This document shows positions 4,465 through 64,000 of a stretch of DNA of 64,000 nucleotides, piece by piece. The notes beneath the pieces were generated by a model. The model was not told where the DNA came from. It made no database searches and saw only the letters and a list, made by a program, of their open reading frames with translations. Origin of the DNA: Haloplanus aerogenes (GTDB lineage: Archaea; Halobacteriota; Halobacteria; Halobacteriales; Haloferacaceae); the NCBI RefSeq assembly GCF_003856835.1, contig NZ_CP034145.1, positions 868,001-932,000 on the forward strand, given 5' to 3'. The position numbers were made by a program, and so were the translations under genes. Each line of letters opens with the position of its first letter. The first letter of the stretch is position 1.

Positions 4465-5238
4465 ATGAGCGAACCCAACTCTCCCGTCAGTGCCGTATTC
4501 GCCCTCCAGCGAAACGCGATCGAGCAGACACACGAAGCCGTCAAACGCGGTGTCGAAACCCAGCAGGAATTCGGCGAGGCATTCGTCGACTTCGGCCCCG
4601 CAAAGCAGGCAAACGAGCGCGGCTACGACGCCGTCCGTACGGTCGTCGATGTGTACTTCGACGCCGTCGAGTCCACGACGCCCGGTCAAGAGGACCTACT
4701 CGATGACTTCCGCACTACCGTCGACGAACAACTCGACGCTCTCGAAGCCAACCAGGTCGAAGCCATCGAGGCCATCGAGGCGAACGCGCAGGAAGGCAGC
4801 GAGTCCGTCGACGAACTCTTCGAGAGGGTCATCGAGGTTCTCAACGAGCAGTTCGAGGCGGTTCTGGACGCCCACGCGGATGTCCAAGGGCAGACCGTCG
4901 AGGCCGTCGAAGACCTCGAAGGCAACCTTGAGGAGCTTCAGGCCGAGTTCGAGACCCAGTTCGCGCAGTTCGAAGAGCAGGCCACCGAACTCCAACAGCA
5001 CGTCGAGGACATGCACGACGATATCGCCGAGATAGCGGACCAACAGGTAGAGGTACAAGTCGAATCGCTCGACACCATCAAAGGCATCGGCTCGACGTAC
5101 GTCGACCGACTCCAGGACCAGGGCATCGAGTCCTTCGAAGCCCTTGCCGAGGCCAGCACCGACACGGTCGCCGAGACGGCGGAAGTATCCCGAGAGCAGG
5201 CCAACGAGTGGATCGAAGCGGCGCAGCTCCAGGCGTGA
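4465..5238 (+). CDS. Helical (phasin-like) protein with C-terminal helix-hairpin-helix
   Basis: 257 very acidic residues. Residues 1-195 are almost entirely helix and coiled coil (repeats of VEAIEAIEANAQEG and AEFETQFAQFEEQATELQQH type) with no signal or membrane span. The last 50 residues form a DNA-polymerase-beta-like helix-hairpin-helix (TIKGIGSTYVDRLQDQGIES then VSREQANEWIEAA). The same HhH type ends the PASTA protein at 27157-28296. Phasins of haloarchaeal polyhydroxyalkanoate granules have similar amphipathic helices, but no pha genes are nearby. It could equally be a scaffold or DNA-associated protein. The leaderless start at 4465 is supported by a TATA box. Confidence 0.75.
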   Translation: MSEPNSPVSAVFALQRNAIEQTHEAVKRGVETQQEFGEAFVDFGPAKQANERGYDAVRTVVDVYFDAVESTTPGQEDLLDDFRTTVDEQLDALEANQVEAIEAIEANAQEGSESVDELFERVIEVLNEQFEAVLDAHADVQGQTVEAVEDLEGNLEELQAEFETQFAQFEEQATELQQHVEDMHDDIAEIADQQVEVQVESLDTIKGIGSTYVDRLQDQGIESFEALAEASTDTVAETAEVSREQANEWIEAAQLQA

Positions 5239-24911: not shown

Positions 24912-25271
24912 TTAGCGGTTCAGAATAGGCGCTTTGAGCGCGGCCACCTCGCCCATGATCGTCTCGACGTGTTCTTCCGGGACGCCGTTCTCCTCCAGCG
25001 CTTCTTCGAGGTAGCGCCCGACGAGGTCGAAGTCCGCTTCCTCGATACCGAGGTGGTCGTGTGCCTCGCGCATGTCGCCGCCGCTGTACTCGACGGGACC
25101 GCCGGCGACGGCGCTGATGAACTGGATCTGGTGCGTGCGGAGATCCGCCATATCCGTGTCCTCGAAGTACGGCGTCAGTTGGTCGTCGTCGAGTACGCGC
25201 TCGTAGAAGTCGTCGACGACTGCTTCGACTGCGTCTCGGCCACCGATATCCTGATAGATAGTCTGCGACAT
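24912..25271 (-). CDS. Group I truncated haemoglobin (trHbN-like)
   Basis: A 119-residue 2-over-2 globin that would bind O2 or NO. The N-terminal YQDIGGRDAVEAVVDDFYER carries the B10 Tyr region, THQIQFISAVAGGP the distal E-helix Gln, and REAHDHLGI the proximal His. The ending HVETIMGEVAALKAPIL is the H helix. Roles in NO detoxification or oxygen sensing are known in the family. A redox-type bat regulator gene is immediately upstream in the same direction. Confidence 0.92.
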   Translation of the reverse strand: MSQTIYQDIGGRDAVEAVVDDFYERVLDDDQLTPYFEDTDMADLRTHQIQFISAVAGGPVEYSGGDMREAHDHLGIEEADFDLVGRYLEEALEENGVPEEHVETIMGEVAALKAPILNR

Positions 25272-25361: not shown

Positions 25362-25997
25362 TCAGTTCGAGATGATCTGATCGAACAGTTTCGTCTGCGC
25401 CACCGACAGGTGTTCGACGAACGTGGAGACGGAGACGCCGAGTTCGTCCGCCACGGCGCCCGATTTCGCGCTCTTGGGCGAGTCGAAGTAGCCCATCTCG
25501 TGAGCCGTCTTGAGCACCTCGTACTGGCGGTCGGTGAACGCGTTCCGGTCCGCGACGAGCAAGGCGGGTCCGTCTTCGCCTGCTCCCGTGCGGACGAGTC
25601 GCCGGACCGTCACGTCGGCACAGCAGGATTCGAGGTCGGACGCGATGGCACGCAGGGTGTCGAGGTCGGGTGTGATGAACGTGAGACGGAGACAGCCACC
25701 GTCCGCCCGGAGGCCGCGGATCGGACAGCCGTGACTCGGCACGCGCGAACACGGACAGTCCTCGTCGTGGGTGTACCGGTACACCGACTGTGAGCCGTCC
25801 TCGAATACGGCCTCGGCAGCGTCGACGTTCACGCGTTCCCCGTCGTGCTCTACCGTCACCTCGCCGACGACGGCCGATTCCGCCGTCCCACCCTGGTCGA
25901 CGGTCACCGACTCGACGGCGACATCCTTGCTCAGCGACGACGCGGGACACCCAGTCACGCCGCGGAGTTCGAACTGGACGTGGATTCCGGACGCCAT
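25362..25997 (-). CDS. Bat-type HTH transcriptional regulator with cysteine cluster
   Basis: A 211-residue haloarchaeal regulator. The N-terminal half is a beta-rich sensor. A Cys cluster (DEDCPCSRVPSHGCPIRG plus CLRL and ESCCADV) sits near 85-140 and suggests metal or redox sensing. The C-terminal HTH of the bacterio-opsin-activator type is NAFTDRQYEVLKTAHEMGYF with DELGVSVSTFVEHL. The start at 25997 is supported by a TATA box about 24 bases upstream, so it is leaderless. It may control the downstream truncated haemoglobin. Confidence 0.88.
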   Translation of the reverse strand: MASGIHVQFELRGVTGCPASSLSKDVAVESVTVDQGGTAESAVVGEVTVEHDGERVNVDAAEAVFEDGSQSVYRYTHDEDCPCSRVPSHGCPIRGLRADGGCLRLTFITPDLDTLRAIASDLESCCADVTVRRLVRTGAGEDGPALLVADRNAFTDRQYEVLKTAHEMGYFDSPKSAKSGAVADELGVSVSTFVEHLSVAQTKLFDQIISN

Positions 25998-26115: not shown

Positions 26116-26772
26116 ATGGCAGATCCCGTCAACAACATCGTCAAGGAGATACCGTTCGCCGAACTCGTCCGCAAGGCTGCGCTGGCGGTGGCCGACGGGC
26201 AGACGGCACTCGACCTCAACTCCGTCCAGACGGCACAGACGCTCGCGGATATGGAACTCGACGCCGGCGCCGTCATTCTCGGCATCGTCGAGGAGACGGA
26301 CGCCGACGGCAACGTCACGAACGTCTCGACGCTGACGAACGATCAGCCGCTCTCACTCTTGGCCTACGGCGTCACGCCCACGTTCTACGAGTTCAGCGAG
26401 ACGGAGATCGACCTCAAATTCTGGGTGCGGTGGCACACCCGAAGCACGCACGTCGAGAGCGACTCGACGTTCTCGCGGGATCTGCGCACGTCCTACGAGC
26501 AGTCGCGCAAGAAGTACGGTGGCGGCGGCGGCGTCGGCCTCAACCTCGGCTTCTTCTCCATCGGGGGCAAGGGCGGCTACCAGAAACAGGAGGTCAAGGG
26601 TGAACGCGAGGTGGAACTCGACGTGCGGGCACACAGCGAGTACGACAGCAAGGTGTACGGGCTGGACGCGAGCGCGGCCTGCCGGCTGAAGACGACGCTG
26701 GTGCCCAAGCCCGCCCCGGACCGCTCGGTGCCCGAAATCATCACGCGCCCGGCCGAGGGTGGATCGCCGTGA
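26116..26772 (+). CDS. Unknown protein, first gene of the four-gene PASTA operon
   Basis: 218 residues, no signal peptide or membrane span. Residues 1-40 form helices with FAELVRKAALAVADGQTALD, a motif repeated in the next gene (LGELVSGVARAVAEGQTELD). Near 95-110 is VTPTFYEFSETEIDLKFWVR, a hydrophobic strand pair ending in an E-[IV]-[DK]-L motif also seen in the next two genes. Then comes a glycine-rich hairpin YGGGGGVGLNLGFFSIGGKG, a charged strand region and a Pro-rich tail. The pattern recalls DUF2589-like proteins (from memory, not searched). The function is unknown. Confidence 0.8.
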   Translation: MADPVNNIVKEIPFAELVRKAALAVADGQTALDLNSVQTAQTLADMELDAGAVILGIVEETDADGNVTNVSTLTNDQPLSLLAYGVTPTFYEFSETEIDLKFWVRWHTRSTHVESDSTFSRDLRTSYEQSRKKYGGGGGVGLNLGFFSIGGKGGYQKQEVKGEREVELDVRAHSEYDSKVYGLDASAACRLKTTLVPKPAPDRSVPEIITRPAEGGSP

Positions 26773-27155
26773 GCCAGTCGCTCGATTCCTGGACTGCGCG
26801 GCCGCTGGGCGAACTGGTCTCCGGCGTCGCCCGGGCGGTGGCGGAGGGGCAGACGGAACTCGACCGCGCGTCGCTCTCGACGCGACGGGACATCCAGCGA
26901 GCGGTCGAAGACGGAGATCTGGAGATGCCCATCGAGACGCCGTGGTTCCGCTTCGCGGGCGTCGAGGCCGACCTGAACGTGTCGCTGTCGATGCGCGGCC
27001 GGCCGGAGCGCGACGCCGACGGCGAGATTCGCGCGTATCGGCCGACGCTCGTCGCCGCACCCACCGATCCCGCGTTCACGACCCGCACCGACTACGACGT
27101 GGCGGCGTCGAGTCGCGTCCGCCTCGACATCGTCCCCGTCCCCGGCACCGAGTGA
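26769..27155 (+). CDS. Unknown protein, second gene of the PASTA operon (paralogous N-terminus)
   Basis: 128 residues, GTG start overlapping the previous stop by four bases (GTGA). The N-terminal helix LGELVSGVARAVAEGQTELD is plainly related to the first gene's. It is followed by IETPWFRFAGVEADLNVSLS, matching the hydrophobic strand plus V-E-x-D-L motif, and a C-terminal strand RVRLDIVPVPGTE. It lacks the glycine-rich segment. It is probably a small partner or subunit of the same particle or complex as gene 1. Confidence 0.75.
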   Translation: MSQSLDSWTARPLGELVSGVARAVAEGQTELDRASLSTRRDIQRAVEDGDLEMPIETPWFRFAGVEADLNVSLSMRGRPERDADGEIRAYRPTLVAAPTDPAFTTRTDYDVAASSRVRLDIVPVPGTE

Positions 27156-27156
27156 G

Positions 27157-28296
27157 ATGCCGGGCGACGACTTCCAATTCACGACGGCACTCGCCACCCT
27201 CGACGCCTCGAAACTCGATCGGGCGGAGAAACGCGAGGTCGAGGGGCTCTACCGGGCCAAGGAATATCTCACCACCGCGTTGCGCGAGCAACTGATCGAG
27301 GTGGAGAGCGAGCGCGACCTCCTCCGGACGAAAGTCGACCGCTTGCAGGCGGAGCGCGACGCGATCCGTGACCGGCTGGACGGCCTCGAAGCCGACCGCG
27401 GCACCGTCGCCCCCGACCGACTGGTCGCGTCGCTGGGTGACGCCCTCGCCACCGCCCGCGACGACCTCTCCGAGGCCGACTACGCCATCGGTCGGATCGA
27501 GGTCGACCTGAAGGCGAACGTCGTGGGCGGCGCGGACGGCCCGCAGTTCCAGCTTCCCGACCTCGCCGAGTCGGTGAACCGCGAGGCGCTGAGCACGCTC
27601 CGATTCGACCTTCGGCCGGCCACGCGGGACGAGACGGTTACCTACGACCCGATTCCCGACGTGCGCGACCGGTCGCTCGACGAGGCACGGGAGGCGATCC
27701 GGCGCGCGGGCTTCGCCGTGGGCGAGGTGGCGACCGAACCCGGCGACGCCGACGACGTGGTCCTCGACCAGTTCCCGTCGCCTCGATCCGTCGCGGAACC
27801 GGGGACGGCAGTGGATCTCACCGTCTCCGAACGCCGCGAAATCGACGTACCGGCCGTGATCGGCCACGATCTGACGGACGCGACGGCGGCGCTCTCGGCG
27901 GCCGACCTCGCGGTCGGGGAAATCGACGCCGAGACGCGCGACGAACCGCCGGACGTGGTGGTCGGCCAGACGCCGCCGGCGGGGGACGCAGTGCCCGTCG
28001 GAACGGCGGTCGATCTGACCGTCTCGGCCGGTCCGCCCGACGAGGGAACCGAGAGCGCGGATGAACAGGACGGGAACGTGAACGAACGGGCGAGCGAGTC
28101 GGACGCTGGGCCCGCCCTCGAAGCCGTCGACGGCATCGGCCCGACCTACGCCGACCGCCTGCGCGAGGCGGGCATCACCGACCTGTCGGCGCTTCTCGAC
28201 CGGGAGCCGGCAGCGGTGGCCGACATCACCCGCGCCTCGACGAGTCGCGTCGAGGACTGGTTCGGCCACGCGAAACGCCTGCTGGAGGGCGAATGA
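27157..28296 (+). CDS. Coiled coil - two PASTA repeats - helix-hairpin-helix protein
   Basis: 379 residues, cytosolic by sequence. Residues 10-85 form a long coiled coil (KEYLTTALREQLIEVESERD and following). Residues 95-120 hold ADYAIGRIEVDLKANVV, again the shared E-V-D-L motif. Two PASTA repeats span about 165-225 (IPDVRDRSLDEAREAIRRAG ... VVLDQFPSPRSVAEPGTAVD) and 226-295 (VPAVIGHDLTDATAALSAAD ... VVVGQTPPAGDAVPVGTAVD). An acidic linker leads to a HhH (VDGIGPTYADRLREAGITDL). PASTA usually binds cell-wall muropeptides outside bacteria; here it is in a soluble archaeal protein. Starts one base after the previous stop. Confidence 0.85.
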   Translation: MPGDDFQFTTALATLDASKLDRAEKREVEGLYRAKEYLTTALREQLIEVESERDLLRTKVDRLQAERDAIRDRLDGLEADRGTVAPDRLVASLGDALATARDDLSEADYAIGRIEVDLKANVVGGADGPQFQLPDLAESVNREALSTLRFDLRPATRDETVTYDPIPDVRDRSLDEAREAIRRAGFAVGEVATEPGDADDVVLDQFPSPRSVAEPGTAVDLTVSERREIDVPAVIGHDLTDATAALSAADLAVGEIDAETRDEPPDVVVGQTPPAGDAVPVGTAVDLTVSAGPPDEGTESADEQDGNVNERASESDAGPALEAVDGIGPTYADRLREAGITDLSALLDREPAAVADITRASTSRVEDWFGHAKRLLEGE

Positions 28297-28535
28297 CCGG
28301 CACCCATCTGGTCGCGTTCGACCCGTCGAGCGACGAGGCGACGATCCAGCGGGTGCTCGGCCGCGTCGTCGCCGGCGGTGGCGAACTGGTCTTCGTCGCT
28401 GGCGGCGGGGTGATCGTCCGCGCGCCCGAGGTGGTCGTGGAGGCGCTTGGTGCCGACCCCGCGGTGCGCCACGTTGGCGGGGTGACGCTGCCCGACAGGG
28501 CACCTGCGCGCATCCGTCGACCGGCGTCGGAGTGA
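28293..28535 (+). CDS. Small I9-propeptide-like protein, last gene of the PASTA operon
   Basis: 80 residues, ATGA overlap with the PASTA gene. The order of elements, THLVAFDPSSDEATIQRVLG, GGGELVFVAGGGVIVRAP and VVEALGADPAVRHVGGVTLP, is like the peptidase-inhibitor I9 / subtilisin propeptide fold (strand-helix-strand, then a helix with LxADPxVxxV). No protease gene is adjacent. It could be a free-standing inhibitor or assembly chaperone. The fold call is by eye. Confidence 0.65.
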   Translation: MTGTHLVAFDPSSDEATIQRVLGRVVAGGGELVFVAGGGVIVRAPEVVVEALGADPAVRHVGGVTLPDRAPARIRRPASE

Positions 28536-50110: not shown

Positions 50111-51300
50111 TGGAGACTTTTGAGCAATTTGCGAGCTATATTCTTGCTCGCGTTGTAATCGGCGTTCAGTTGGTATGCACACTTCTGACACACGAACTGG
50201 TGTTTCGACCGCCGATTGTTCTCGTGAGTAAACCCACACGACGAACACCGCTGGCTCGTGTACGCCGGACTCACCTGTGCAACCTCGATACCGGACATCT
50301 CGGCCTTGTATTCGACGTACTGGCAGAGGCGACGGAAGGCCCATGCGTGGAATCGCTTTGCACCAGCCATTCGATTACGAATATCGGTCAGGTTCTCGAA
50401 CGCGACGTGCGTGCAGTCGTGGTCGCGTGCTTCGTCAAGAATCCGATTCGAGGCGCGGTGGAGTTCGTCCTGCATCCAGCGATGTTCACGGTCATTCATC
50501 GACTGTATCGACAGATGCGCCGAGCGCGTGCCTGTCTGTTGCATCGATCCGCGAGTCTTCTCGAATTCACGGCGTCGATGATTCATCTCGTCGGCGTTTC
50601 CGATGAACGCACCGGTCGAAGTTACGGCGAGCGAGCCGTCCACGTTCAGGTCAATGCCAAGGACTGTTCTGTGCTTGGCATCGGAAGAATCAGTCGTGGA
50701 CTGCTCTTGCTCGTCACGTTCGACTCGACGCATTCGAGCGTGAAGGTAAAACGACTCTGTTGGCCGGTCGTACTGTACCGTTGACATACGGAACTCGTAG
50801 TCCTCGTTCAGCAGGTACTCACCAATCGGCGTTCCCGCAGTATCGTCGGGTATTATGTAGTCACACTCGACGCGACCGTTCACGGTCGACAGCGATACGT
50901 GGTCCCGGTGGAACGTCGCAGAACGTTTGTCGTAGACGATGCTCCAGGCATCGAAGTGCGGTTGACTCGTGTTCTCGCCGTTTTTGAGTCGAGCGACCCC
51001 ACTTTTCGTGGCCTCGATAGCACGTCGAATCCCTTTCTGAACAAGGTTCGCCGTTAACTCTGTCTCGCCACGGAGTTGATCGTACAGGGCGCTCTCGGCT
51101 TTCTGTTTCGAGGTTATGGAGTAGACATTCTGACATCCCCATGCCCATTCCGCAGTAGTATTGGCACAGTAGAGGAACTGGTCTTTCGTCCGATGGAGGT
51201 CATCGCACCGCTCGTCGGGTACGTTGAGTTTGACTTGGACAGTGCGAATCATATCCCCCATCCGTGTTTTATATATCGACGTATTCCTTCATAATCATTG
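49960..51300 (-). mobile_element. Solo TnpB element (IS1341-like), no TnpA
   Basis: The unit contains only tnpB. At its 3' edge the minus strand carries the hairpin CCACGACT-TC-AGTCGTG (49967-49983) around the tnpB stop, as at the right ends of IS200/IS605 elements. The 5' limit is not visible, so the right coordinate is approximate. It would need a TnpA supplied in trans. It sits directly downstream of the ABC operon. Confidence 0.6.
49966..51261 (-). CDS. tnpB: TnpB, RNA-guided nuclease of IS200/IS605 type
   Basis: 431 residues. The split RuvC nuclease is intact: Asp in VLGIDLNVDGSLAVTS, Glu in HVAFENLTDIRNRM, and Asp in LNADYNASKNIARKLL. A zinc ribbon RCSSCGFTHENN ... FVCQKCAY lies between the last two. 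The N-terminal WED/REC-like part includes QFLYCANTTAEWAWG. The family cuts DNA next to a TAM using a guide RNA read from the element's right end. All catalytic residues are present, so it may be active. Start may be the third codon on (MIRTVQVKL, 51252). Confidence 0.93.
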   Translation of the reverse strand: MGDMIRTVQVKLNVPDERCDDLHRTKDQFLYCANTTAEWAWGCQNVYSITSKQKAESALYDQLRGETELTANLVQKGIRRAIEATKSGVARLKNGENTSQPHFDAWSIVYDKRSATFHRDHVSLSTVNGRVECDYIIPDDTAGTPIGEYLLNEDYEFRMSTVQYDRPTESFYLHARMRRVERDEQEQSTTDSSDAKHRTVLGIDLNVDGSLAVTSTGAFIGNADEMNHRRREFEKTRGSMQQTGTRSAHLSIQSMNDREHRWMQDELHRASNRILDEARDHDCTHVAFENLTDIRNRMAGAKRFHAWAFRRLCQYVEYKAEMSGIEVAQVSPAYTSQRCSSCGFTHENNRRSKHQFVCQKCAYQLNADYNASKNIARKLLKSLHSGQKSSGGGAPCQCALSSGTLNLNGEFHASVNTTAEGESTDKPRLQS

Positions 51301-51560
51301 AGGTTAGCAAGGGGAAGAAGTCGCCCAGCGTGGATCAACTGCATCACAGGCTCGAAATTGGCGTCAACTGCCGTTCAAAGCACCTTTCGACCAGAACGAG
51401 CAGAACGTTCTCAGCTCACCCTGTGAGGGAAATCCCCTCATTCTAGCGTTCATGGTTGCACATTCAACAGCCTCACCGAGTATGCTGAATTTAGCACTTC
51501 GAGATTGTAAAATCATGATTAATGAAATCAGGATTTAGATAATTGCCAGAATCCCTCAAG
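51262..51560. other. AT-richer spacer upstream of tnpB, no clear gene
   Basis: About 300 bases between tnpB and the truncated gene fragment. A TATA-like TTTTATATATCG near 51268-51280 (opposite strand) may drive tnpB. An in-frame plus-strand stretch ending HPVREIPSF (up to 51446) may be a transposase relic, but no family could be assigned. Confidence 0.4.
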
Positions 51561-51851
51561 TGAATCCGGAAACAGGAAATAGGCAAGCGATGGGTTGTCC
51601 GCGACGAGTACGATTACGGCTCGCTCAAACACAACATGACCGCCAAACTCACCAGCGTCGAGGCGACGCTTCCCATCGGACCCCTCGAACTACAGATTAC
51701 CTACAAACTCTATCTGGGTGCGCCGAAGGACTTCGAAGATGCAGTACATCTCTATGCGATGTTCAAGGAAACGCTTAGCACCCCAGAACTCGAACGGTGG
51801 GTGACGAAACTCAACGTCGAGGACGACTATGACCGACTCGAACGCGCGTGA
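51561..51851 (+). pseudogene. 5'-truncated nucleotidyltransferase-like (AbiEii-type) fragment
   Basis: An open frame from just after a TGA near 51560 reads RWVVRDEYDYGSLKHNMTAK, VEATLPIGPLELQITYKLYL and APKDFEDAVHLYAMFKETLS. This resembles the C-terminal half of haloarchaeal nucleotidyltransferase-fold proteins of abortive-infection or toxin type (from memory). The N-terminal catalytic part is missing, perhaps lost with the TnpB or other insertion upstream. The next gene overlaps it by 23 bases, as in a coupled pair. Confidence 0.55.
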
Positions 51852-52062
51852 TTCACTCGAGGCGACGCACGAACGGAACCGCGAGCAACGCCTCACTGGC
51901 ATCAAACGCTGGGTTGACTACATCAAATCCCACGAGCCAGACGACTGGGGCGCACAGCAGAACCGTCTCGTCGACTCACAGCTCGAATCGGCCCGTCAGT
52001 CCGACATCGATATCGAACACCGCCAGCGCGTAGACCGGGCCGGTCGTGAACGTTCCCGCTAG
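51829..52062 (+). CDS. Small helical partner protein of the nucleotidyltransferase-like gene
   Basis: 77 charged residues, helical: RDSLEATHERNREQRLTGIK, RWVDYIKSHEPDDWGAQQNR and VDSQLESARQSDIDIEHRQR. Its ATG lies inside the preceding truncated gene (23-base overlap). Such small partners commonly sit beside nucleotidyltransferase-like genes in haloarchaea, perhaps as antitoxin. With its partner truncated it may be an orphan. Confidence 0.6.
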   Translation: MTDSNARDSLEATHERNREQRLTGIKRWVDYIKSHEPDDWGAQQNRLVDSQLESARQSDIDIEHRQRVDRAGRERSR

Positions 52063-52231
52063 CTGGTCGTCCGTGGGGCCCTCTCTGCCGAACGAAGCCG
52101 TCGATTCCGCCACTGTTCCACTGCTCGTTCTCCGGTGGAGCATCGCGATGATCGTCCCCGTCAGCAAGCGTCCGTCTCCGAATACATCCTCCGTCGCTAG
52201 CTGACGCTCGGCCGTCGTGGTGACGGTGCCA

Positions 52232-52408
52232 TCATCCCGACCAGCCGCCGCGGATGTCGTCGGCGATTCGCTGGCGCCAGACGCTATACCCCCCGTCACA
52301 CGCCTCACTCTCGTCGAGGTGGCGCACGAAGCCCTCGCCGGGCGACGGGAGTTCCTGACCGCAGAACGGGCACTGGTTTGGGTCTGTCCACGTTTCGCTC
52401 GCTGCCAT
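52232..52408 (-). CDS. Small zinc-finger protein (DUF7501-like), 58 residues
   Basis: A short ORF starting MAASETWTDPNQCPFCGQEL and ending WRQRIADDIRGGWSG. It has a zinc-binding pattern C-x2-C-x14-H-x6-C (CPFCGQELPSPGEGFVRHLD then SEAC), characteristic of a widespread haloarchaeal small zinc-finger family. It is intact despite its small size. The function is unknown; possibly nucleic-acid or protein binding. Confidence 0.75.
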   Translation of the reverse strand: MAASETWTDPNQCPFCGQELPSPGEGFVRHLDESEACDGGYSVWRQRIADDIRGGWSG

Positions 52409-52674
52409 ACACGCACGGTCGCGTTGTAGGACTAAAAATGTATGTTCTAGCTGTTTTTGTGTGATATTAGTCCGATTATAACAGCTAATATGGCCAATAT
52501 TCTTGTTGTCTCGTTTGTCTATTCCCCATTTCAGTGGAATTACTCAAATTCCCGTAGGTTGGGACGATGCGTTTCCGACTGTCGAGCGGCTGCGTCGGAG
52601 CCGCACGTGCAAGTTCATAATCGAGCCCCGCAAGGAACCGTCGGATTCCACCCACGGCTTTCGCCGTAAATAAC
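52409..52674. other. Non-coding spacer with AT-rich core
   Basis: The first half is AT-rich and likely holds the promoter of the zinc-finger gene. The second half holds a short inverted stretch CCCACGGCTTTCGCCGT near the vapC stop that could terminate the vapBC transcript. No gene is seen. Confidence 0.4.
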
Positions 52675-53151
52675 TCACTCTGGGTGGACAGTCAGCGAGG
52701 GAAAATACGTCTCGTAAAAGTCACTATCGAAGCTGATCAGTGACTCAGCGTCGACGACAGCATGACCGCCGATGAGGAAGTCAGCGGCAATATGCTGGCC
52801 TGGCGCTAAGTCTTCCCCGCACTCCTCGCACACAACCTGTTGTTTGCGCCCGCAGGTCGGGCATTGAAGTCCGTCTGGTCGGTGTGACGTGTAGCGTTGA
52901 AACTGTTGGCCGGCCCGAAACAGTGCGTCGCAAGATGGCTCTCCCAGCTGGATACTGAAATCGGCGAGGAACTCGTTCAATTCGGATTCGGTGTTGAAAT
53001 GGCCGTCAGCGGCAAGTTCGGCATAGACGATCGGCGCGATCACGAGTTTGCCCTCCTGATAGGCCTGCCGGAGGGTTGTCTCGCTCGCGTCAGTATGCGT
53101 ATCTTCGTACAGGATCGCGAGCAGCGTGTTCGTATCGACTGCCGTGATCAC
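52675..53151 (-). CDS. vapC: VapC-type PIN toxin with an inserted zinc ribbon
   Basis: 158 residues. PIN ribonuclease acidic residues are seen in ITAVDTNTLLAIL (D), APIVYAELAADG (E), HIAADFLIGGHAVV (D) and LISFDSDFYETYF (D). Between the third and second acidic motifs a Cys4 ribbon is inserted (LQCPTCGRKQQVVCEECGED, about residues 97-118), which ordinary VapC lack. It would cleave RNA unless bound by VapB. Its ATG overlaps vapB by ATGA. Confidence 0.9.
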   Translation of the reverse strand: MITAVDTNTLLAILYEDTHTDASETTLRQAYQEGKLVIAPIVYAELAADGHFNTESELNEFLADFSIQLGEPSCDALFRAGQQFQRYTSHRPDGLQCPTCGRKQQVVCEECGEDLAPGQHIAADFLIGGHAVVDAESLISFDSDFYETYFPSLTVHPE

Positions 53152-53435
53152 GCGTCAGTCTCCCCCTCGACGTCGCTCTCTGCCTCCGAACCGATGTCAC
53201 GGGGGTACTCCCCTCGAAGTCGCCGCATCCGCTCGGGCATCGTCTCGTCACTCTCAGCGCTCCCCCGGTACTTTTCGAAAGGGTCCCCACCCTCTGCCGT
53301 TGTCGGTTCGTGCTTCCGGATCGTATAGCCGGTGTCGGTCTCTTCGAACACGATCTCGTCGCCGGGCTCGATGCCGAGTGTCTCGCGGATTTCCTTCGGG
53401 ATCGTAACCTGGCCCTTGGTCGTAACGCGTGGCAT
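53148..53435 (-). CDS. vapB: VapB-type antitoxin, AbrB/SpoVT fold
   Basis: A 95-residue antitoxin: the swapped-hairpin DNA-binding domain MPRVTTKGQVTIPKEIRETL and IEPGDEIVFEETDTGYTIRK, then a disordered acidic tail that would wrap the toxin (PFEKYRGSAESDETMPERMR). It binds VapC and represses its own operon in the family. The next 254 bases upstream include a CATAATAGGTATTACG stretch that may be the promoter/operator. Confidence 0.92.
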   Translation of the reverse strand: MPRVTTKGQVTIPKEIRETLGIEPGDEIVFEETDTGYTIRKHEPTTAEGGDPFEKYRGSAESDETMPERMRRLRGEYPRDIGSEAESDVEGETDA

Positions 53436-53689
53436 CCTCCGCCCAGCATATGAAGTAATACATAATAGGTATTACGGGTATTTTCGAACTTCGATACGTC
53501 GACACGCTCAGTCTCTCCAGAACGCACGCTGGCGGTCTTCAATCCCGTCCCCAGAACGCAAAGCGTTCTGGTGGGTGAACGAGACGATTCGCGTCTCGTC
53601 AACACCGTAAACAGCGAGATTCTCTCCTTGTAGGAAGATGGCTACGCTTCGAAACGCTGGAGCAATTGCGTGACGTAGGGGCTGTTCTC
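53436..53689. other. Spacer with two small palindromes, likely mobile-element relic
   Basis: CCAGAACGC-AAA-GCGTTCTGG near 53551-53572 and GAGACG-ATTCG-CGTCTC near 53580-53598 lie close together. A minus-strand 61-residue frame covers them but shows no family. The pattern suggests the end of a lost IS element; nothing coding is supported. Confidence 0.35.
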
Positions 53690-54186
53690 TCAACTACGGT
53701 GCAGGCTGATCGTCGTGATCAGTGTGCTCGCTTCCGCCCGGGTCATATGCCCGTTGCGGGCGTAATTGATGATCAGCCGTGGCGTCGGGACGATCCGCAG
53801 CCCCTGAAGCACAGCATGGATGAATGGAAAGTTCGTCCCGCCGAACTCGTCGGTCAGAAAGCCGTCAACATCGAGCGTGTTCGCGAGGACGATCCCGTCG
53901 GTTTCACCGTCATCGAGGCCGAACGTCGGCCGGGTGTCTGGGGTGTCGTCGCGCTCGCAGGGATCGTCGACCGTGTAGTGGCTGCGGGCTCGAGGACGTT
54001 GCTCGCAACGGCGGCGTGGATGTCCTGATACTGCGTAATGTCGCGGAGCTCCGCAACAACTTCCGGTGGCAGGAACACGTCACACGACGTGAGAAGATAC
54101 TGAAACAGGGCCGGAACGTCGGTATTGACGGCCGCGTCGGCACGGGGAACAGCGAGGCTGACGAGCGCGCTGGTGTCGGCGACGAC
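53690..54186 (-). pseudogene. PIN-domain nuclease, frameshifted and fused behind AglB remnant
   Basis: Begins within the AglB frame as PVVADTSALVSLAVPRADAA (first PIN Asp), continues FLPPEVVAELRDITQYQDIH (Glu), then shifts frame near 53978-53988. The second frame reads HYTVDDPCERDDTPDTRPTF, DGETDGIVLANTLDVDGFLT (two acidic sites) and LRIVPTPRLIINYARNG, with stop at 53690. One base restores a complete PIN protein. It lacks its own start, so it is probably not expressed as a normal toxin. Confidence 0.7.
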
Positions 54187-54906
54187 CGGCGCGAGCCGTT
54201 CCGGTCCCGGCCGACGAATCTCGACCAGGGCCACGAGGCCGAGCGCGGGGGCGAGCGGAACGAGCAGGAGCGGCGCAGCCTCCCACGCGAGCGCTTGGGC
54301 CGCGACCGCGACGGCGAGCGCACCCGACGCGAGCCACGTCCGGCGGTCACGCTCACTTCGTGCGAGCAGTTCGATGACTGCCAGCGCCGTGAGCGCGAGC
54401 CACACGTAGTCGAAGGCGTGGTGGTCGGCCACCCCGGGGGCAGTCCGGTAGGCGTGAGCCGGCGTGACGGCCAGGAGTCCAGCCGCCGCGAGGCCGACGC
54501 GCACGTCGCCGGTGAGTCGCGCGGCGGCGCCGTAGACGAAGGCGGCCGTCAGCACCGCCGCGACCACGGGATACCACGCGACGACAAATCCCGATCCCCA
54601 CGTCCCCGCGCCGAACGGCCACGCCGCCACGGAAAGCGCCGCGACGAGGAGCGGTTCGCCCTGGACCGCCCGGTCGGGGAGCGACGGAAGCGGTCCGTTC
54701 AACAGCGCCTGATCGACCAGGTAGCGGTAGAGATAGGGGTCGTTCGAAGCGAGGACGATCCAATCGTCGCGGAACACTTCCTGAATCGTCGGGAGGCGAA
54801 CGAGGACAACGAGCGCGAGGGCGAGCAAGAGGGCCGTCCGGACGGGGATGCGACGTTGTCGGTCTGCCCGATCCGCTGGCTCGTCGGACCACTTGGCTTC
54901 GCTCAT
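54187..54906 (-). pseudogene. aglB: AglB (Stt3) oligosaccharyltransferase, N-terminal fragment
   Basis: About 240 residues of the roughly 900 expected. The N-terminal membrane region is present with LASNDPYLYRYLVDQALLNG and APGVADHHAFDYVWLALTAL, the DHH/D-containing loops of STT3 enzymes that move lipid-linked glycan onto protein Asn. It then runs straight into a PIN gene at 54187. The catalytic C-terminal WWDYG region is missing, so it cannot work. ATG at 54906 overlaps the sugar transferase stop (ATGA). Confidence 0.8.
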
Positions 54907-55830
54907 CTCTTCCTCCACTCAAAATAGTCTGGTTCCTTCACCGCCATTCGACCGGACAGTGGGGATGCAGATACATATAGCCGCTCGTCTACCGAGATAT
55001 GCCCGCGCACGATCACGTATCGCATAAGACGGAGCGCGTCAACGAATACCATCCAGAGCTGCCGGATGTACGCCACGTCGTACCGAAGTTTCCCGTCGGG
55101 CTCGGTACTCGTCACGTTGTTTATCTGTGCGAGGCCAGTCAGCCCGGGTTTGACGAACCACCGCTGACACCACGAGCTAACTTCGGATTCGATTTCGACC
55201 ACCTCGTCGACCCACACTGCACGCGGGCCAACGACGCTCATCCGGCCGCTAAGGATCGTCAGCAACTGCGGGATTTCGTCGAGATGCGTCTTGCGGAGGA
55301 TCCGCCCGACTCGAGTGATGCGGTCGTTTTGCTTGTCGTCGATAGGTGTCACGGACTCGCCTTCGGGAATCATCGTCCGGAACTTATAGACGGTGAACGT
55401 GTAGCCGAACTCAGCCGTCCGCTACTCCGCGTAGAAGACCGGCCCGCCATCGTCGAGTTTGATCGCGATAGCAATGAGGAACATGACCGGCACGAGGAGG
55501 AGGCCGACGAATGCGAACGCGATGTCGAACGCGCGCTTGAGAACGTGGCTCTGCCAGTCCCACAGTTCGACGTCAATGTCGACCAGTTCACCCGTTTCGA
55601 GGCCCGTCGTGAGGACCGTATCGGCGTGGCAGTGGTGGACTTTGGCGTTGACCCTCATGCGATGACACGTATCAAGCGACCCGAAACTCCTCCTGGTCCG
55701 GGTACTCGAAGGCGAAGACGACGGTGTCGATATCGCGGTCGATGAGTACGTCCTCGAGGCGAGCGAGACCGCCGAGACACTTCGACAGCACAATCAAAAT
55801 CTTACTGGTCTGTTTGCTTTTCAATTAGTC
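54903..55830 (-). pseudogene. Polyprenyl/dolichyl-phosphate sugar transferase, stop and frameshift
   Basis: Bacterial-sugar-transferase family, which starts glycan assembly on a lipid phosphate. Intact C-terminal segments: RVGRILRKTHLDEIPQLLTI, LSGRMSVVGPRAVWVDEVVE and FVKPGLTGLAQINN. Upstream in the same frame is a TAG at 55422 between FYAE and RTAEFGYTFTVYKFRTM. Before it HVLKRAFDIAFAFVGLLLVP gives the membrane hairpin. Near 55680 the frame shifts (ARLEDVLIDRDIDTVVFAFE is in the other frame). Two separate lesions make a pseudogene likely. Confidence 0.75.
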
Positions 55831-55883
55831 GAAGGCAACCGGATGTGAGTATAGGGCAAAGAGTCCCCACCAAATCCACTGCT

Positions 55884-56423
55884 TCAGCGACGATTCGCTG
55901 ATGACTTGAGGATGGTTTCGCCGGGCGCGGTCGTGGTACCGCCTGCAAGAACCACACCAGCGTTCAGACTCGTGTTGATACCGGTTTTCACGCCATCACC
56001 ACACACAACACCGAACTTGCGTCGGCCCGTGGAAACACGTTCGCCTTTTACAGTACAGGTGACTGGTTCCTCGTCGTGTCGCAGATTGGCGACCGTCGTA
56101 CCTGCACCGAAATTTACGTCACGACCGAGGATGCTATCCCCGACATACGAGAGATGACCAACGGTTGCGCCACGCATGAGTACGCTATTTTTCATCTCAA
56201 CGGAATGGCCAACTGTTGTGTCGGGACCGAGTAGCGTTGTCCCCCGAACATACGCGTTTGGCCCGACAGTTTCCCCCTCTTGCAGGACTGCTGGACCCTC
56301 AATAACGACCCCCGAATCGACAGTGGCTCCTGATTCAAACAATGGGACCCCGAAGATCTGCATCTGCATGGACCTCTCCATGGATCTGTCGCTGACATTC
56401 TTCGAGTTTCCACTCATTCGCAC
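55884..56423 (-). pseudogene. Sugar-1-phosphate nucleotidylyltransferase, C-terminal beta-helix only
   Basis: About 165 residues of left-handed beta-helix hexapeptide repeats: SGVVIEGPAVLQEGETVGPN, RGTTLLGPDTTVGHSVEMKN, VGHLSYVGDSILGRDVNFGA, then TGRRKFGVVCGDGVKTGINT. This matches the acyltransferase-like tail of archaeal glucose-1-phosphate thymidylyl/GlmU-type enzymes. The N-terminal nucleotidyltransferase domain is missing and replaced at about 56412 by an IS630 relic on the other strand. Confidence 0.75.
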
Positions 56424-56720
56424 AAATCCTACGCATTCTATGAGTTTCTTCCACCGAAAGAAACACGGCGTCTCCTTGAGAAGCTAGAGTTCTATTTCAC
56501 GCCCAAGCACGGCAGCTGGCTCAATATGGTCGAAATTGAGTCCAGCGCACTCACTACTGAATGTCTCGATCGTCGTATTCCCGACGCAGCGACCCTCCGT
56601 GCGGAGGTCGCTGCGTGGGAGCGCACTCGAAATGAGGATGAGTCAGCTATCGACTGGCAGTTCACTGCCGAGGATGCACGTATCAAACTCCGTCAGTTAT
56701 ATCCCACAAATCACGCTTGA
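56412..56720 (+). pseudogene. IS630-family transposase, C-terminal fragment
   Basis: An open frame reads THSHKSYAFYEFLPPKETRR, KLEFYFTPKHGSWLNMVEIE (with the final catalytic Glu in LNMVEIE) and ECLDRRIPDAATLRAEVAAW, ending LRQLYPTNHA. The N-terminal half and left end of the IS are gone. It probably caused the truncation of the nucleotidylyltransferase next to it. Confidence 0.8.
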
Positions 56721-57020
56721 AGCGGCACTAGCGCTCGGTCAGCACACTATCCAGAGTATCGGGGTACGGTTCTCACGTTAGAGTGAAGACTACCTGTGCC
56801 GTGTCTCGAAAGTCATAGTGCAGAAAGTCCACTGTCACAACTGTTCGTAGGTCTTTTTGTCACACCGTTGGCTGCCACTCATACGATGGAAATCACCTCC
56901 TCATTGTGCGTGTAGTGAGGGTTGTCGTACTCCAAGGCACGCACTGGTGCATCGGTCAAGGTCAGTATAATTTTCACTCTATCGTATTTCTTTTATAATA
57001 CGGGACTGAATCACTGAGTA
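56721..57020. other. Spacer: IS630 right-end relic and flippase promoter
   Basis: The first roughly 70 bases continue the IS630 right end (to GTACGGTTCTCACGTTAGAG). The last 50 bases are AT-rich with CTTTTATAATACGGG near 56990-57005, about 25 bases before the flippase ATG, a good leaderless promoter. No gene is seen. Confidence 0.45.
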
Positions 57021-58850
57021 ATGAATGAAACCGACCATACGTCGGTAGGCCGGCGCGATCAACTTCATGCACTTCTACGGGTTGCCAGATACCGGCCGCA
57101 ATTCACTATAGGGATTATTTTCGGAGGCGTCTTTGCGGCACTCTTAGAGGGTATCGGAATCGGATTCATTCTGCCCATCGTCGAAATCGTGCAATCATCG
57201 GGTGACCCGGCACAGCAGGCAGACGGGATCATACGAGTGTTCGTGTCCGTGTATCAGTTTTTTGGACTCCCGTTCAGTTTAGGATTCGTCGTTGCTGGCG
57301 TGAGTGCTGTCCTAATTGTTCGGTGGACGTTGACATTCTTCGTCCGATGGATGTGGAGCGCGCTAGCTATTGATTACACGCGATATCTTCAGCGTGAATC
57401 GTTCGACAATGCACTTGACGCACGTATCGAGTACTTCGATCAAGAAGGTTCAGACGACATTTTAAACGCAATTGTCACGCAGTCAGAGTACGCGGGCCGG
57501 ACGATTCGATTCGTTATTAATTTCATCGAACAGGGATTCCTGACGCTGATGTATCTCGTGGTCGCATTTGCTATTGCACCGGTACTTGCGCTCGTTACTC
57601 TAATATTCCTCGGCGGCATTGCGGTGCTGTTTCGATATGTTATCGAACCAGGATACGAACTCGGAGATAAGGTCGCCGACGCGAACGAGCGGGTCCAGCA
57701 AGCCGCTCAAGCAGGGACACAAGGGATTCGCGATACGAAACTGTTCGGTCTGAAAAATGAACTCTTTGACGACTTCCGCGATAGTGTCAACCAGTACGCT
57801 GAGTCAAAGATCAGGCTACGACGAAACGAACAGGCGATACAAAACTTCTACAACCTCTTGACCGCAGTCTCCGTATTTATTCTTATTTACCTCGCACTCA
57901 CGTTCGCGAACCTCTCACTTGGTGCATTGGGGGTATTCCTGTTTGCAATGTTCCGACTCGGACCAAAGGCAAGCGGCTTGAATTCAAGACTCTACCGGAT
58001 TGAGAATAACCTCCCGCATCTCGTCCGAACGCAGAAATTCATTGACGAACTCGAACAAAATGCTGAACCAATGATTAATTCAGAGCCTGTACCAAACGAG
58101 ATTCAAACTGTTGATTTCGATGATGTGTACTTCTCCTATGAGGGGCAGGAAGACGAAGCACTCGCAGGAGTATCCTTCAAGTTCCAAAAAAGTGAGTTTA
58201 TTGGACTCATCGGACGTTCTGGAGCCGGAAAGTCCACAATCATCTCATTGCTTGTCCGTATGTACGAACCAGACTCCGGCGAGATTCGGGCGAACAATCG
58301 ACCGATTCACGAGATGGACATTGACGAGTGGCGCTCACAAATTGCCGTAGTGCGACAAGATCCGTTCATCTTCAACCATACGTTGCGATACAACCTCACC
58401 ATCGGAAATAGGAGCGTTTCCGAGAAGGAACTTGACCGCGTCGCCCAGATCGCTAGGATCGATGAGTTTTTCGACGACCTACCGAACGGGTATGAGACGC
58501 AACTCGGGGACGACGGCGTTAGGTTATCAGGTGGACAGCGACAGCGCGTCGCACTGGCTCGAGCACTGTTGAAAGACGCGGACATATTAGTGCTCGATGA
58601 GGCAACGAGCAACCTTGATTCGAATCTGGAAGAAGAAGTACAGACCGCTATTGAGAACATGAATCGCGATTACGCCATAGTAGGGATCGCGCATCGACTC
58701 TCGACCGTGAGGAACGCTGACCGAATTTATTCAGTGGATGATGGGAAGATCGTCGAGATGGGACAGCATGAGGAGTTGATCGACAACGACGGACAGTATG
58801 CTGAACTATACGGTATTCAGTCACAGGATGGTGGTACAAGAGATCAGTGA
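57021..58850 (+). CDS. PglK-like lipid-linked oligosaccharide ABC flippase
   Basis: A 609-residue half-transporter: six-span ABC membrane domain (ALLEGIGIGFILPIVEIVQS, VVAGVSAVLIVRWTLTFFVR and others), then the ATPase with Walker A GRSGAGKSTIISLLVRMY, Q-loop VVRQDPFIFNHTLRYN, signature RLSGGQRQRVALARALLKDA, Walker B ILVLDEATSNLDS and H-loop GIAHRLSTVRNAD. Homodimers flip glycan lipids across the membrane. All motifs are intact. Codon use is AT-richer than the core region. It is the one clearly complete machine left in this glycan locus. Confidence 0.9.
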   Translation: MNETDHTSVGRRDQLHALLRVARYRPQFTIGIIFGGVFAALLEGIGIGFILPIVEIVQSSGDPAQQADGIIRVFVSVYQFFGLPFSLGFVVAGVSAVLIVRWTLTFFVRWMWSALAIDYTRYLQRESFDNALDARIEYFDQEGSDDILNAIVTQSEYAGRTIRFVINFIEQGFLTLMYLVVAFAIAPVLALVTLIFLGGIAVLFRYVIEPGYELGDKVADANERVQQAAQAGTQGIRDTKLFGLKNELFDDFRDSVNQYAESKIRLRRNEQAIQNFYNLLTAVSVFILIYLALTFANLSLGALGVFLFAMFRLGPKASGLNSRLYRIENNLPHLVRTQKFIDELEQNAEPMINSEPVPNEIQTVDFDDVYFSYEGQEDEALAGVSFKFQKSEFIGLIGRSGAGKSTIISLLVRMYEPDSGEIRANNRPIHEMDIDEWRSQIAVVRQDPFIFNHTLRYNLTIGNRSVSEKELDRVAQIARIDEFFDDLPNGYETQLGDDGVRLSGGQRQRVALARALLKDADILVLDEATSNLDSNLEEEVQTAIENMNRDYAIVGIAHRLSTVRNADRIYSVDDGKIVEMGQHEELIDNDGQYAELYGIQSQDGGTRDQ

Positions 58851-58924
58851 TCCAGAGCAAGAGATGCTTTGAGGAGGATTCTCCACCTAAATACCAACAT
58901 TGTCACCAGTCTATTCGGAAAATC

Positions 58925-60151
58925 TCAATTCGGCTCGATACAATCGAATAATTGTGTGATATTATCTATTTCTTTTTTGATATTATATTTTTGTTCAACA
59001 GCACGACGGCCATTTTTGCCCATTAGACAACGCTGAGACGGTTCATTGTACAATCGAACTACTGTTTCCGCAAATGACTCTGGTGAATGTTCAAATGTGA
59101 TTCCGGCTTCTGTTTCGTTCAAAATACGCTTCATAGTCATGAGGTTAGATGATAGAACGGGAGTTTCAAACGCCATAGATTGAAATAGTTTGTTAGGAAG
59201 AGCTCGTTGCGACTCAGGATCATCAACAAAAGGAACAATTGTTAAATCGGATACATTGTAAAAGGAAGCAACCCGTTCGAAATCAACCCACCCAACAAAT
59301 TCGACTGTATCCACAACTCCCTCCTTTAGTGCGGTCTGATGTAAGGATTGGACGTATTCATCTTGGCCGTCTCCAACCAAGACTAGCTTAACCTGTGGTA
59401 TCTTTTCCTTAATCAAAGACATTGCTTTGATTGGGATTTCAAGTCCTTTCTGTGGGGAGAATCCCCCGATATACGAGATAATAAATTCATCCTCATACCC
59501 TAATGGTTCTACTGGCATATTGTCAAGACGATCTAGATCTGGAACATTCCTAACTACTTTTGCCGGCAAATCTCGCTTATTATATTTATTTAAATAATAG
59601 TCTAAAATTTCCTCACTCACAGTCACTAAACCATCCGTATAAGTGACTACATATTCCTCCATTCGTCTGAAACGCCACGCGGGCCGGAGAAAAATACCTG
59701 GCTTCAACTTCTGCTTATACGAATAATCCTCTTGCCAGACATCAACGGCGAAAGAATATATTTCATGTAGATCAGCAATAGTTCTAAGATTGTGCCACTT
59801 CGCCAATCTTATTGCAAGTTTCGCATGATGAACATCATGAAAATATATGAAGTCGTAATCATCATCATGTAATAGGTTATGCAGTTCACGGAGCCAGATG
59901 GGATCATACCATGTTGTTAAATACACGCCTTTAGATAGATACCAAGTTAGTTTTGAATCTGTACCTATTCGAGTTATTTGAACAGAATTCAAGGATTCAT
60001 GCTGTTGTGATTGGCTCCCGCGACTACAGACCACGTGAACACTATGGCCCTTAGAGACTAGTCCCTCTGCTTCACGCCGAACACGGATATCATCCTTATA
60101 CTCCCCCTCAAGAATCATCAAGATATGCATACCACAGACCCGAAACAACAA
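58925..60151 (-). CDS. Glycosyltransferase family 4
   Basis: A 408-residue GT-B enzyme. The N-terminal domain starts MHILMILEGEYKDDIRVRRE. The acceptor-side DFIYFHDVHHAKLAIRLAKW, the linker VVRNVPDLDRLDNM, the donor domain FIISYIGGFSPQKGLEIPIK, VKLVLVGDGQDEYVQSLHQT and the E-x7-E region RALPNKLFQSMAFETPVLSS are complete. It would add a sugar from an NDP-sugar to a lipid-linked glycan. The true start is probably Met8 (60130). AT-rich, like the flippase. Confidence 0.88.
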   Translation of the reverse strand: MLFRVCGMHILMILEGEYKDDIRVRREAEGLVSKGHSVHVVCSRGSQSQQHESLNSVQITRIGTDSKLTWYLSKGVYLTTWYDPIWLRELHNLLHDDDYDFIYFHDVHHAKLAIRLAKWHNLRTIADLHEIYSFAVDVWQEDYSYKQKLKPGIFLRPAWRFRRMEEYVVTYTDGLVTVSEEILDYYLNKYNKRDLPAKVVRNVPDLDRLDNMPVEPLGYEDEFIISYIGGFSPQKGLEIPIKAMSLIKEKIPQVKLVLVGDGQDEYVQSLHQTALKEGVVDTVEFVGWVDFERVASFYNVSDLTIVPFVDDPESQRALPNKLFQSMAFETPVLSSNLMTMKRILNETEAGITFEHSPESFAETVVRLYNEPSQRCLMGKNGRRAVEQKYNIKKEIDNITQLFDCIEPN

Positions 60152-60211
60152 AGAATAAATCTTGCGGATATTATAATAACGTGTTCGCTCAGGGGAAGCA
60201 CATTGACTCTA

Positions 60212-60268
60212 TGAAAATCCTGCTACTAAGCCCCTGGCGCGTGAATCACCAAACAGGGGCTGAGTGAG
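60212..60268 (+). pseudogene. Stub of a glycosyltransferase-like gene cut by IS110
   Basis: An 18-codon reading MKILLLSPWRVNHQTGAE then stop. The sequence is like the first strand and loop of GT4 enzymes, and a TATA-like ATATTATAAT lies upstream, divergent from the 58925 gene. The IS110 element starts within or just after it. The rest of the gene was not found after the IS, so it is a relic. Confidence 0.4.
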
Positions 60269-60405
60269 ATCGTGCACCAACAAGTGCAGTAAGCACGTTA
60301 GATTGACCGATCCAAGCACCGTGAAAGGATGAAGAAAATTGTGCCATAGAGCACGCATAGGTGTCTCTCTGATTCACGCGCAAGCAGCCCCAACGGAGGC
60401 GTTGT
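60249..60405 (+). ncRNA. Candidate IS110 bridge RNA region
   Basis: IS110-group elements encode a bridge RNA with target- and donor-binding loops in the non-coding left part before the transposase. Here about 155 bases lie between the inverted repeat and the ATG, with several self-complementary stretches (for example GTGCACCAACAAGTGCA). This is inferred by analogy to the family. Confidence 0.4.
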
Positions 60406-61398
60406 ATGTACCTCGGAATCGACACCCACAAACGGTACTCGCAGGTTGCCGTCGTCGACGGCGACGGCAACCTGCAAGACGAGATTCGCTTGCCAAACGA
60501 CCGCCTTGACGAACTCGCCGAGCAGTACACCGGTGCTGAAGCTGCTATCGAAGCATCCGGTCACTACCGCCCGATCTACGAGATGCTCGACGAGCATCTC
60601 GATGTTACCCTCGTTAACCCATCAAAGAATCGGATCATTGCTGATGCGGCAGTCAAAACCGATCGCGTCGATGCGAAACGACTCGCACAGATGCTTCGGG
60701 CGGGTATGCTCGCTGAGAGCTACGTGCCACCGGACGAGATCCGCGTTCTGCGGGATCTCGTCCGGACTCGGAAGTCCCTCGTCGAAGCGCGGACAGCTGA
60801 GAAAAACCGCGTCAGAGCTGTCCTTACACGCACCGACAACACCTACGACAGCGAGTTGTTCGGGCCGACTGGTCGAGAGTTCCTAGCGGAACTCTCTCTC
60901 AGCGACGTGGATCGAGCAATTCTCGAGGCTCACCTCTCCATCATTGATGAGTACGACCAGCAAATCGAGAGGCTGGAAGAGAAGGTCGAACGGAGAGTAC
61001 TGGAATCGCCAGCAGCCCAGCGGCTGCTGACGATTCCTGGCGTTGGGCAGTATACAGCCGCCGTAATCGCCGCTGAAGTCGGTGAAATAGAGCGATTTGA
61101 CGAAGACAAGCAACTCGTGAGTTACGCTGGGCTTGATCCAGTCATCCACCAGTCTGGTGACAAAGAGATACGTGGAAGCATCAGCAAAGAGGGCTCAGCG
61201 CCGTTGCGCTGGGCCCTCGTCCAGTGTGCCAACATAGCTGTTCGATGTGACGAGTATCTCGGGAATTTCTACACACGGTTGAAACAGCGGAAGAACCACC
61301 AAATCGCAATCGTCGCAACGGCTCGGAAGATGCTGGTCTCGATCTTCCATATGCTCACGCGGAAAGAACCATACGATCCACCGGGGGTGAGTGCCTGA
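60406..61398 (+). CDS. IS110-family transposase (DEDD type)
   Basis: 330 residues. The N-terminal RuvC-like DEDD domain begins MYLGIDTHKRYSQVAVVDGD (first Asp), with Glu in GAEAAIEASGHY and Asp pair region VKTDRVDAKRLAQMLRAG. A long helical linker precedes the C-terminal transposase_20 domain LLTIPGVGQYTAAVIAAEVG (HhH-like), with the catalytic Ser region RGSISKEGSAPLRWALVQCA. Full length and apparently intact. It recombines DNA without the usual cut-and-paste target duplication. Confidence 0.92.
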   Translation: MYLGIDTHKRYSQVAVVDGDGNLQDEIRLPNDRLDELAEQYTGAEAAIEASGHYRPIYEMLDEHLDVTLVNPSKNRIIADAAVKTDRVDAKRLAQMLRAGMLAESYVPPDEIRVLRDLVRTRKSLVEARTAEKNRVRAVLTRTDNTYDSELFGPTGREFLAELSLSDVDRAILEAHLSIIDEYDQQIERLEEKVERRVLESPAAQRLLTIPGVGQYTAAVIAAEVGEIERFDEDKQLVSYAGLDPVIHQSGDKEIRGSISKEGSAPLRWALVQCANIAVRCDEYLGNFYTRLKQRKNHQIAIVATARKMLVSIFHMLTRKEPYDPPGVSA

Positions 61399-61422
61399 GC
61401 GATCGGTCCGATCGCTCAGGCA
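61392..61422 (+). terminator. 15-base hairpin overlapping the IS110 transposase stop
   Basis: TGCCTGAGCGATCGG-T-CCGATCGCTCAGGCA, perfect, with a one-base centre; the TGA stop is inside the first arm. It may end the transcript or form part of the element's right end. A second palindrome GGGTGAGCC-AA-GGCTCACCC sits at 61537-61556 in the spacer. The remaining 61423-61613 shows no gene. Confidence 0.6.
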
Positions 61423-61556
61423 CAGGCTCACTTTCCGTCCGCACAGCGACCGCTACAGCACTCACGTGTCCCCGCCCTACCAGGTGACGAACCCGTCGCA
61501 GATCACCGTAATCTGGTGATTTGCAGCAATGTATTCGGGTGAGCCAAGGCTCACCC

Positions 61557-63807: not shown

Positions 63808-64000
63808 TAGAGCTGGTCGCGATAGATGTTGATCAGTTGTTTTGCGACTTGCGCCTGATCGTGATGTTGTTCCACATAGTCACGACTTTGGCGTCCAATT
63901 TCGTTACGGAGATCTGGATCACCAATCAACGTAAGCAAATCCTCTTTAAGTGAATCTAAATTTGTGTTGACGATCGGGATGTTATCGGGATACCGACTCA
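63807..64000 (-). CDS. Glycosyltransferase, C-terminal end (start outside window)
   Basis: An open frame from the window edge reads SRYPDNIPIVNTNLDSLKED, LLTLIGDPDLRNEIGRQSRD and YVEQHHDQAQVAKQLINIYR, then DQL and stop. The LRNEIGRQSRDYVEQHHD and LINIYRDQL pattern is the last helix pair of GT4-type glycosyltransferases. It is translationally coupled to the O-antigen-ligase-like gene (TAATG). Confidence 0.75.
   Translation of the reverse strand, partial: SRYPDNIPIVNTNLDSLKEDLLTLIGDPDLRNEIGRQSRDYVEQHHDQAQVAKQLINIYRDQL

Follow-up and report, generated by a model that had tools for sequence, protein, structure and literature searches.

In bacteria, PASTA domains classically lie outside the cell and are known as wall sensors, as in the PknB/PrkC-type kinases and the penicillin-binding proteins (PBPs). 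Trypco domains have been described in PMC7159879 and PMC10907252. Within NTP-dependent conflict systems, Trypco2 is found next to trypsin-like peptidases. For the domain of unknown function DUF2589, PMC3949148 reports that the Archaeoglobus fulgidus region AF0414-AF0417, which includes DUF2589, is up-regulated with lactate; beyond this statement, the open-access literature gave nothing relevant on DUF2589 or on archaeal PASTA proteins. The set of four genes presented here, g1 to g4 of Haloplanus aerogenes, combines PASTA repeats with distant relatives of DUF2589. No described system of the same composition was found in open-access papers, a coverage in which a description may be missed. With caution, the system appears to be new; each of its domains is either already known or a distant relative of a known domain.

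The window, a DNA stretch of 64,000 nucleotides, corresponds to positions 868,001-932,000 of contig NZ_CP034145.1 in the 3.5 Mb genome of this haloarchaeon. The whole set spans window positions 26116-28535 (Table 1). The intergenic spacings g1/g2, g2/g3 and g3/g4 are -4, +1 and -4 bp, which bears out the overlapping or touching four-gene arrangement proposed in the earlier note, and it is near certain that g1 to g4 form a real operon. Upstream of g1, and divergent from it, lies a probable bacterio-opsin activator-type helix-turn-helix (HTH) regulator (25362-25997, reverse strand), adjoined by a truncated-haemoglobin-like gene (24912-25271, reverse strand). A chemoreceptor-like gene occupies the site upstream of g1 instead in the sister genome L019.

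Table 1. Genes of the four-gene set and features of g3 (window coordinates)
Feature	Position	Strand	Description
g1 (family A)	26116..26772	+	218 aa, ATG start; distant DUF2589 relative by profile comparison
g2 (family B)	26769..27155	+	128 aa, GTG start; g1-like but shorter
g3 (family C)	27157..28296	+	379 aa, ATG start; long helix, small core domain, PASTA, HhH
g4 (family D)	28293..28535	+	80 aa, ATG start; small soluble protein without Pfam family
g3 long helix, probable coiled coil	27220..27396	+	residues 22-80, AlphaFold2
g3 core domain	27394..27636	+	residues 80-160, helix plus strands; model confidence 54-67
g3 PASTA repeat 1	27646..27834	+	Pfam, model, structure match
g3 PASTA repeat 2	27844..28026	+	Pfam, structure match
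g3 helix-hairpin-helix (HhH)	28117..28260	+	residues 321-368

None of the four families has a membrane segment (maximum 19-residue hydropathy 1.26, 1.75, 1.66 and 1.98). Inspection of hydropathy and of twin Arg motifs gave no convincing signal peptide in any of them, a twin Arg within the first 15 residues being present in just 2 of 21 g3 relatives. These analyses support the earlier description of the products as soluble and devoid of signal peptides. Pfam, NCBIfam and other domain scans of the subunits found no catalytic or enzyme domain. An exported or surface structure, with PASTA placed outside the cell by a non-classical route, would agree with the classical location of this domain in bacteria, and one Vibrio-plasmid DUF2589 pair is preceded by genes for HlyD and for a peptidase-containing ABC transporter. 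The lack of signal peptide and membrane segment in the four families speaks against this explanation, as does the finding that no secretion gene is conserved beside the set, and we consider it quite improbable.

The g1 protein has a helix at approximately residues 14-45 followed by a beta-rich domain with long strands at approximately residues 90-107 and 182-198, in a model whose pLDDT is only 55. The same helix-plus-strands plan is found, in shorter form, in g2. The two are homologous along their length (hhalign probability 98 to 99.4; 0 of 59 shuffles), in agreement with the N-terminal helix that had been noted as common to genes 1 and 2. A core motif had been proposed for genes 1 to 3 and reads ETEIDLK in g1, VEADLN in g2 and IEVDLK in g3. 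The homology of g1 and g2 sustains this proposal for the first two genes, and its extension to g3 is weaker: profile comparison of g2 with the g3 core gives a probability of 28 (0 of 60 shuffles), and neither g1 nor g2 matches full-length g3 in such a comparison, the weak signal coming from the core domain only. For g1, g2 and g4 there is no credible match in Pfam, NCBIfam, PHROGs or PADLOC, and nothing credible among the sequences of solved structures. A fold search with the g1 model gave a best Foldseek E of 0.24 and a best VIA Z of 4.7. Hot-dog thioesterase, SecB-like and capsid proteins came up for g1 at non-significant structure-match scores and were set aside.

The Pfam family DUF2589 (PF11655, cut-off 23 bits) matches neither g1 nor g2 at E 1, and no member of it was found in the genome of H. 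aerogenes. The link comes by profile-profile comparison only, a check that the earlier note had put forward. The g1 family aligns over 164 columns with the first gene of the DUF2589 clusters (probability 95.7, E 9.6e-9, profile-profile E-values being those of single comparisons). None of 60 column shuffles reaches the score, the best shuffle giving 2.1 and the reversed profile 0.7. By sequence profiles, g1 and DUF2589 are distantly related. DUF2589 proper is found in 13 of 197 genomes of the phylum. In most of these, two DUF2589 genes lie side by side, and a third protein usually comes next, with a weaker resemblance to g2 (55 %) and to the g3 core (82 %), 0 of 60 shuffles in each case. Like g1 and g2, the clusters encode adjacent paralogous short proteins with an N-terminal helix and then strands. 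Unlike g1 to g4, the clusters that were read have no g4 and no long coiled coil combined with PASTA and HhH. The two cluster types occur together in 0 genomes, an overlap of only about one being expected by chance.

DUF2589 pairs are also found on plasmids of Vibrio and other bacteria. Two Vibrio plasmids and one deltaproteobacterial plasmid carry, after the DUF2589 pair, a conserved protein of approximately 91-94 aa (L191, 6926-7201; L194, 6833-7108; L192, 6930-7214), a candidate third member of the DUF2589 cluster in bacteria. The reported lactate response of the A. fulgidus region and the presence of SecB-fold proteins among the structure matches of g1 could point to a stress or metabolic-state set (storage, chaperone-like or protective) with no fixed structure. 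This explanation is unlikely, since the expression datum comes from a distant relative and the g1 structure matches are far from significant.

In the g3 model, the pLDDT of the long helix is mostly 80-94 across residues 21-70 and lower beyond; this single helix is a probable coiled coil. PF03793 hits two stretches of g3 over its cut-off (E 7.4e-23), and the model matches solved PASTA structures with Z 13.6 (3py9) and Z 13.5 (5e10). PF14520 (HHH_5) hits the HhH with E 1.4e-5 and 25.9 bits, just below the 27-bit Pfam cut-off, which relatives of g3 exceed; the fold of residues 317-379 matches 1y88 with Z 9.4. Model confidence is mostly 85-97 in the PASTA and HhH segments. The PF03793 hits, the fold matches and the predicted helix confirm the composition read earlier for gene 3, namely a coiled coil, two PASTA repeats and a HhH. 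As in the PASTA kinases and PBPs, these are true PASTA domains by sequence and fold. Unlike those proteins, g3 has no kinase, transpeptidase or membrane anchor, and its PASTA copies range from 0 to 12 across the set.

The number of PASTA copies is one in several haloarchaea, two in the window, four both in L155 and in the smaller L152 g3, and 12 in a second, large g3-like protein of L152. The latter, 1324 aa long (L152, 9550-13524, reverse strand), is encoded directly upstream of g1-g2-g3-g4. Among ten haloarchaea, PASTA repeat 2 is aligned only in the window and in a close sister genome. The Sphaerotilus g3-like protein, the only bacterial one to be scanned in full, has no Pfam match and lacks PASTA, which is also absent from the C-termini and the other parts read of three further bacterial g3-like proteins. 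PASTA is an accessory because its copy number varies to this extent, and a central place for it is not supported. The core common to the sets consists of the DUF2589-like domains, the coiled coil and g4. The sequence pattern of g4 suggests a beta-alpha-beta-beta-alpha-beta fold. A likeness to I9-type propeptides was perceived by eye; no search backs this identity and it was rejected.

Within the class, g1 is encoded in 10 of 194 genomes, and all four families are present in one cluster in each of these ten haloarchaea. A search of 295 genomes of the phylum reported g1 in 27, from which the four weakest were excluded to leave 23 with true g1. On reading, the hits in G239 and G401 proved to be RNase PH-like exosome proteins; those in G282 and G416 were discarded too because they have the same match pattern. 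All 21 genomes with g3 also have g1 (hypergeometric p ~4e-30, uncorrected for relatedness), contrary to what would be expected if the genes occurred separately in most genomes. Two true-g1 genomes, G345 and G352, lack a g3 match at E 1e-20. A short g3 is present in G352 at 4e-20; the stretch of G345 that was read yielded none.

The methanogen-type genomes among the 14 phylum loci read have the order g1-g2-g3-g4, as in the window. The order is g4-g1-g2-g3 in L157 and g2-g3-g4-g1-g1' in L026 and L027. In the loci read, g4 was not called in L150, L153, L156, L158, L159 and L160, and g3 was not found in L158; L160 begins at a contig end, within g1. In the archaeal loci, as in three complete bacterial operons, the order is a rotation of a single cycle, g1(-g1')-g2-g3-g4. 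Conservation of gene order, another check proposed earlier, holds in cyclic form, and the linear order differs by rotation, with g3 or g4 not found at some loci. In seven methanogen-type loci (L149, L150, L152, L153, L154, L160 and L161) the set keeps a stable position next to the ribosomal protein L3 operon. Save for this syntenic ribosomal-protein region of methanogens, no neighbour is conserved beside the set, which argues that the four genes are self-contained. Their patchy presence, in about 8 % of the phylum sample, argues against a housekeeping structure.

Such a patchy spread over distant groups would also fit a biological-conflict (defence) module in which g1 and g2 are Trypco2-like adaptors and g3 and g4 sense or recruit. 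The Trypco2 HMM (PF19631) weakly matches two relatives of g1 (E 0.013) and one of g2 (0.062), and the two Trypco2 proteins that were read have, like g1 and g2, a short helix and then strands. However, comparison with a Trypco2 profile built from few sequences does not bring g1 or g2 above shuffles. The trypsin-like peptidase or MoxR-vWA gene of Trypco2 systems is not conserved beside g1 to g4, nor is any peptidase, NTPase or effector, and the PADLOC match covers only the PASTA portion of a kinase model. A role in defence is, in our opinion, distinctly unlikely. In L196 (contig G703:C91) a Trypco2 gene adjoins a subtilisin-like open frame with the motif GTSFAAPK, indicating that the pairing of Trypco2 with peptidases may extend beyond trypsin.

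The earlier note had also put forward a comparison with phage-tail-like families. A phage-tail-like or otherwise virus-derived origin would be consistent with modular soluble subunits that combine a coiled coil with beta domains, a picture drawn from the sequences and the g3 model only. A search of phage records and of 2.9 million viral contigs gave no viral copy, and there is no PHROG match below E 0.013, which makes this origin highly improbable.

The set is found also in bacteria, on a plasmid of Sphaerotilus sulfidivorans and in Bacteroidota-group genomes (3 of 395), in the order g4-g1-g1'-g2-like-g3-like. The bacterial matches have E-values of 1.4e-60 to 6.2e-57 for g1 and of 1.7e-6 to 2.1e-8 for g4, whose comparison with its bacterial relatives reaches 96.2 in hhalign. 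Family-level comparison gives 28 for the bacterial g2-like proteins and 8.7 for the g3-like proteins (0 of 50 shuffles each), values that are marginal and weaker than that of g4. The bacterial g1 relatives match the DUF2589 profile built here with E 8.5e-7 to 3.1e-5. In the g1 tree, type I groups the window, SHRA6 and the methanogen-type genomes, which have a single g1, and type II groups Halorubrum, other haloarchaea, G211 and the bacteria, which have g1 plus g1'. The split has a support of 99/96 in a tree with midpoint root only and a long-branch warning. A single clade unites the g1' proteins of bacteria with those of haloarchaea, which places the duplication before their separation. The presence of two separate subtypes in haloarchaea suggests horizontal transfer or an old duplication with loss.

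Since the genes stay together as a unit in archaea and in some bacteria, their products very probably work together. We favour the hypothesis, to which we give an even chance, that they build one soluble hetero-oligomeric assembly in which g3 serves as scaffold and stalk. The g1 and g2 proteins, together with g1' in one subtype, would be DUF2589-superfamily paralogues that pack with each other, each made of a helix and then a long-stranded sheet. The organiser would be g3, its coiled coil driving oligomerisation and its core probably resembling or binding the g1/g2 subunits; in archaea it would bear a variable PASTA stalk, ended by HhH in some lineages. The g4 protein could be a small adaptor. 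PASTA might act inside the cell as a rod or as a ligand-binding module. Alternatively, the operon mates can share a pathway without binding each other. We would guess that the hetero-oligomeric assembly works as a structural or sensing scaffold and not as an enzyme. More tentatively, it may represent a previously undescribed intracellular DUF2589-superfamily assembly of archaea and bacteria, built on a coiled-coil scaffold with a PASTA stalk tuned from 0 to 12 copies.

Genes that were unannotated or labelled 'DUF' become one testable unit of fixed composition in two domains of life, linked to a second, parallel type of DUF2589 cluster. PASTA would probably act inside the cell, in contrast to its known role as wall sensor. 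To our knowledge, the archaeal hosts of g3 have no bacterial peptidoglycan, and if this reading is true PASTA would have a cytoplasmic use in such cells. Confirmation of the assembly would provide a first function for the DUF2589 superfamily.

A contig search with only the HhH motif of g3 as query gave 80 matches, most of which share HhH only because of the query used. In the window, the reading frame at 4465-5238 (forward strand), a phasin-like protein by eye, matches the g3 profile with 1.5e-12, probably through a g3-like HhH. Confident genes are scarce at approximately 51000-64000 of the window, a region with transposase-like genes at 60406-61398 and 61614-62498 that is probably rich in insertions.
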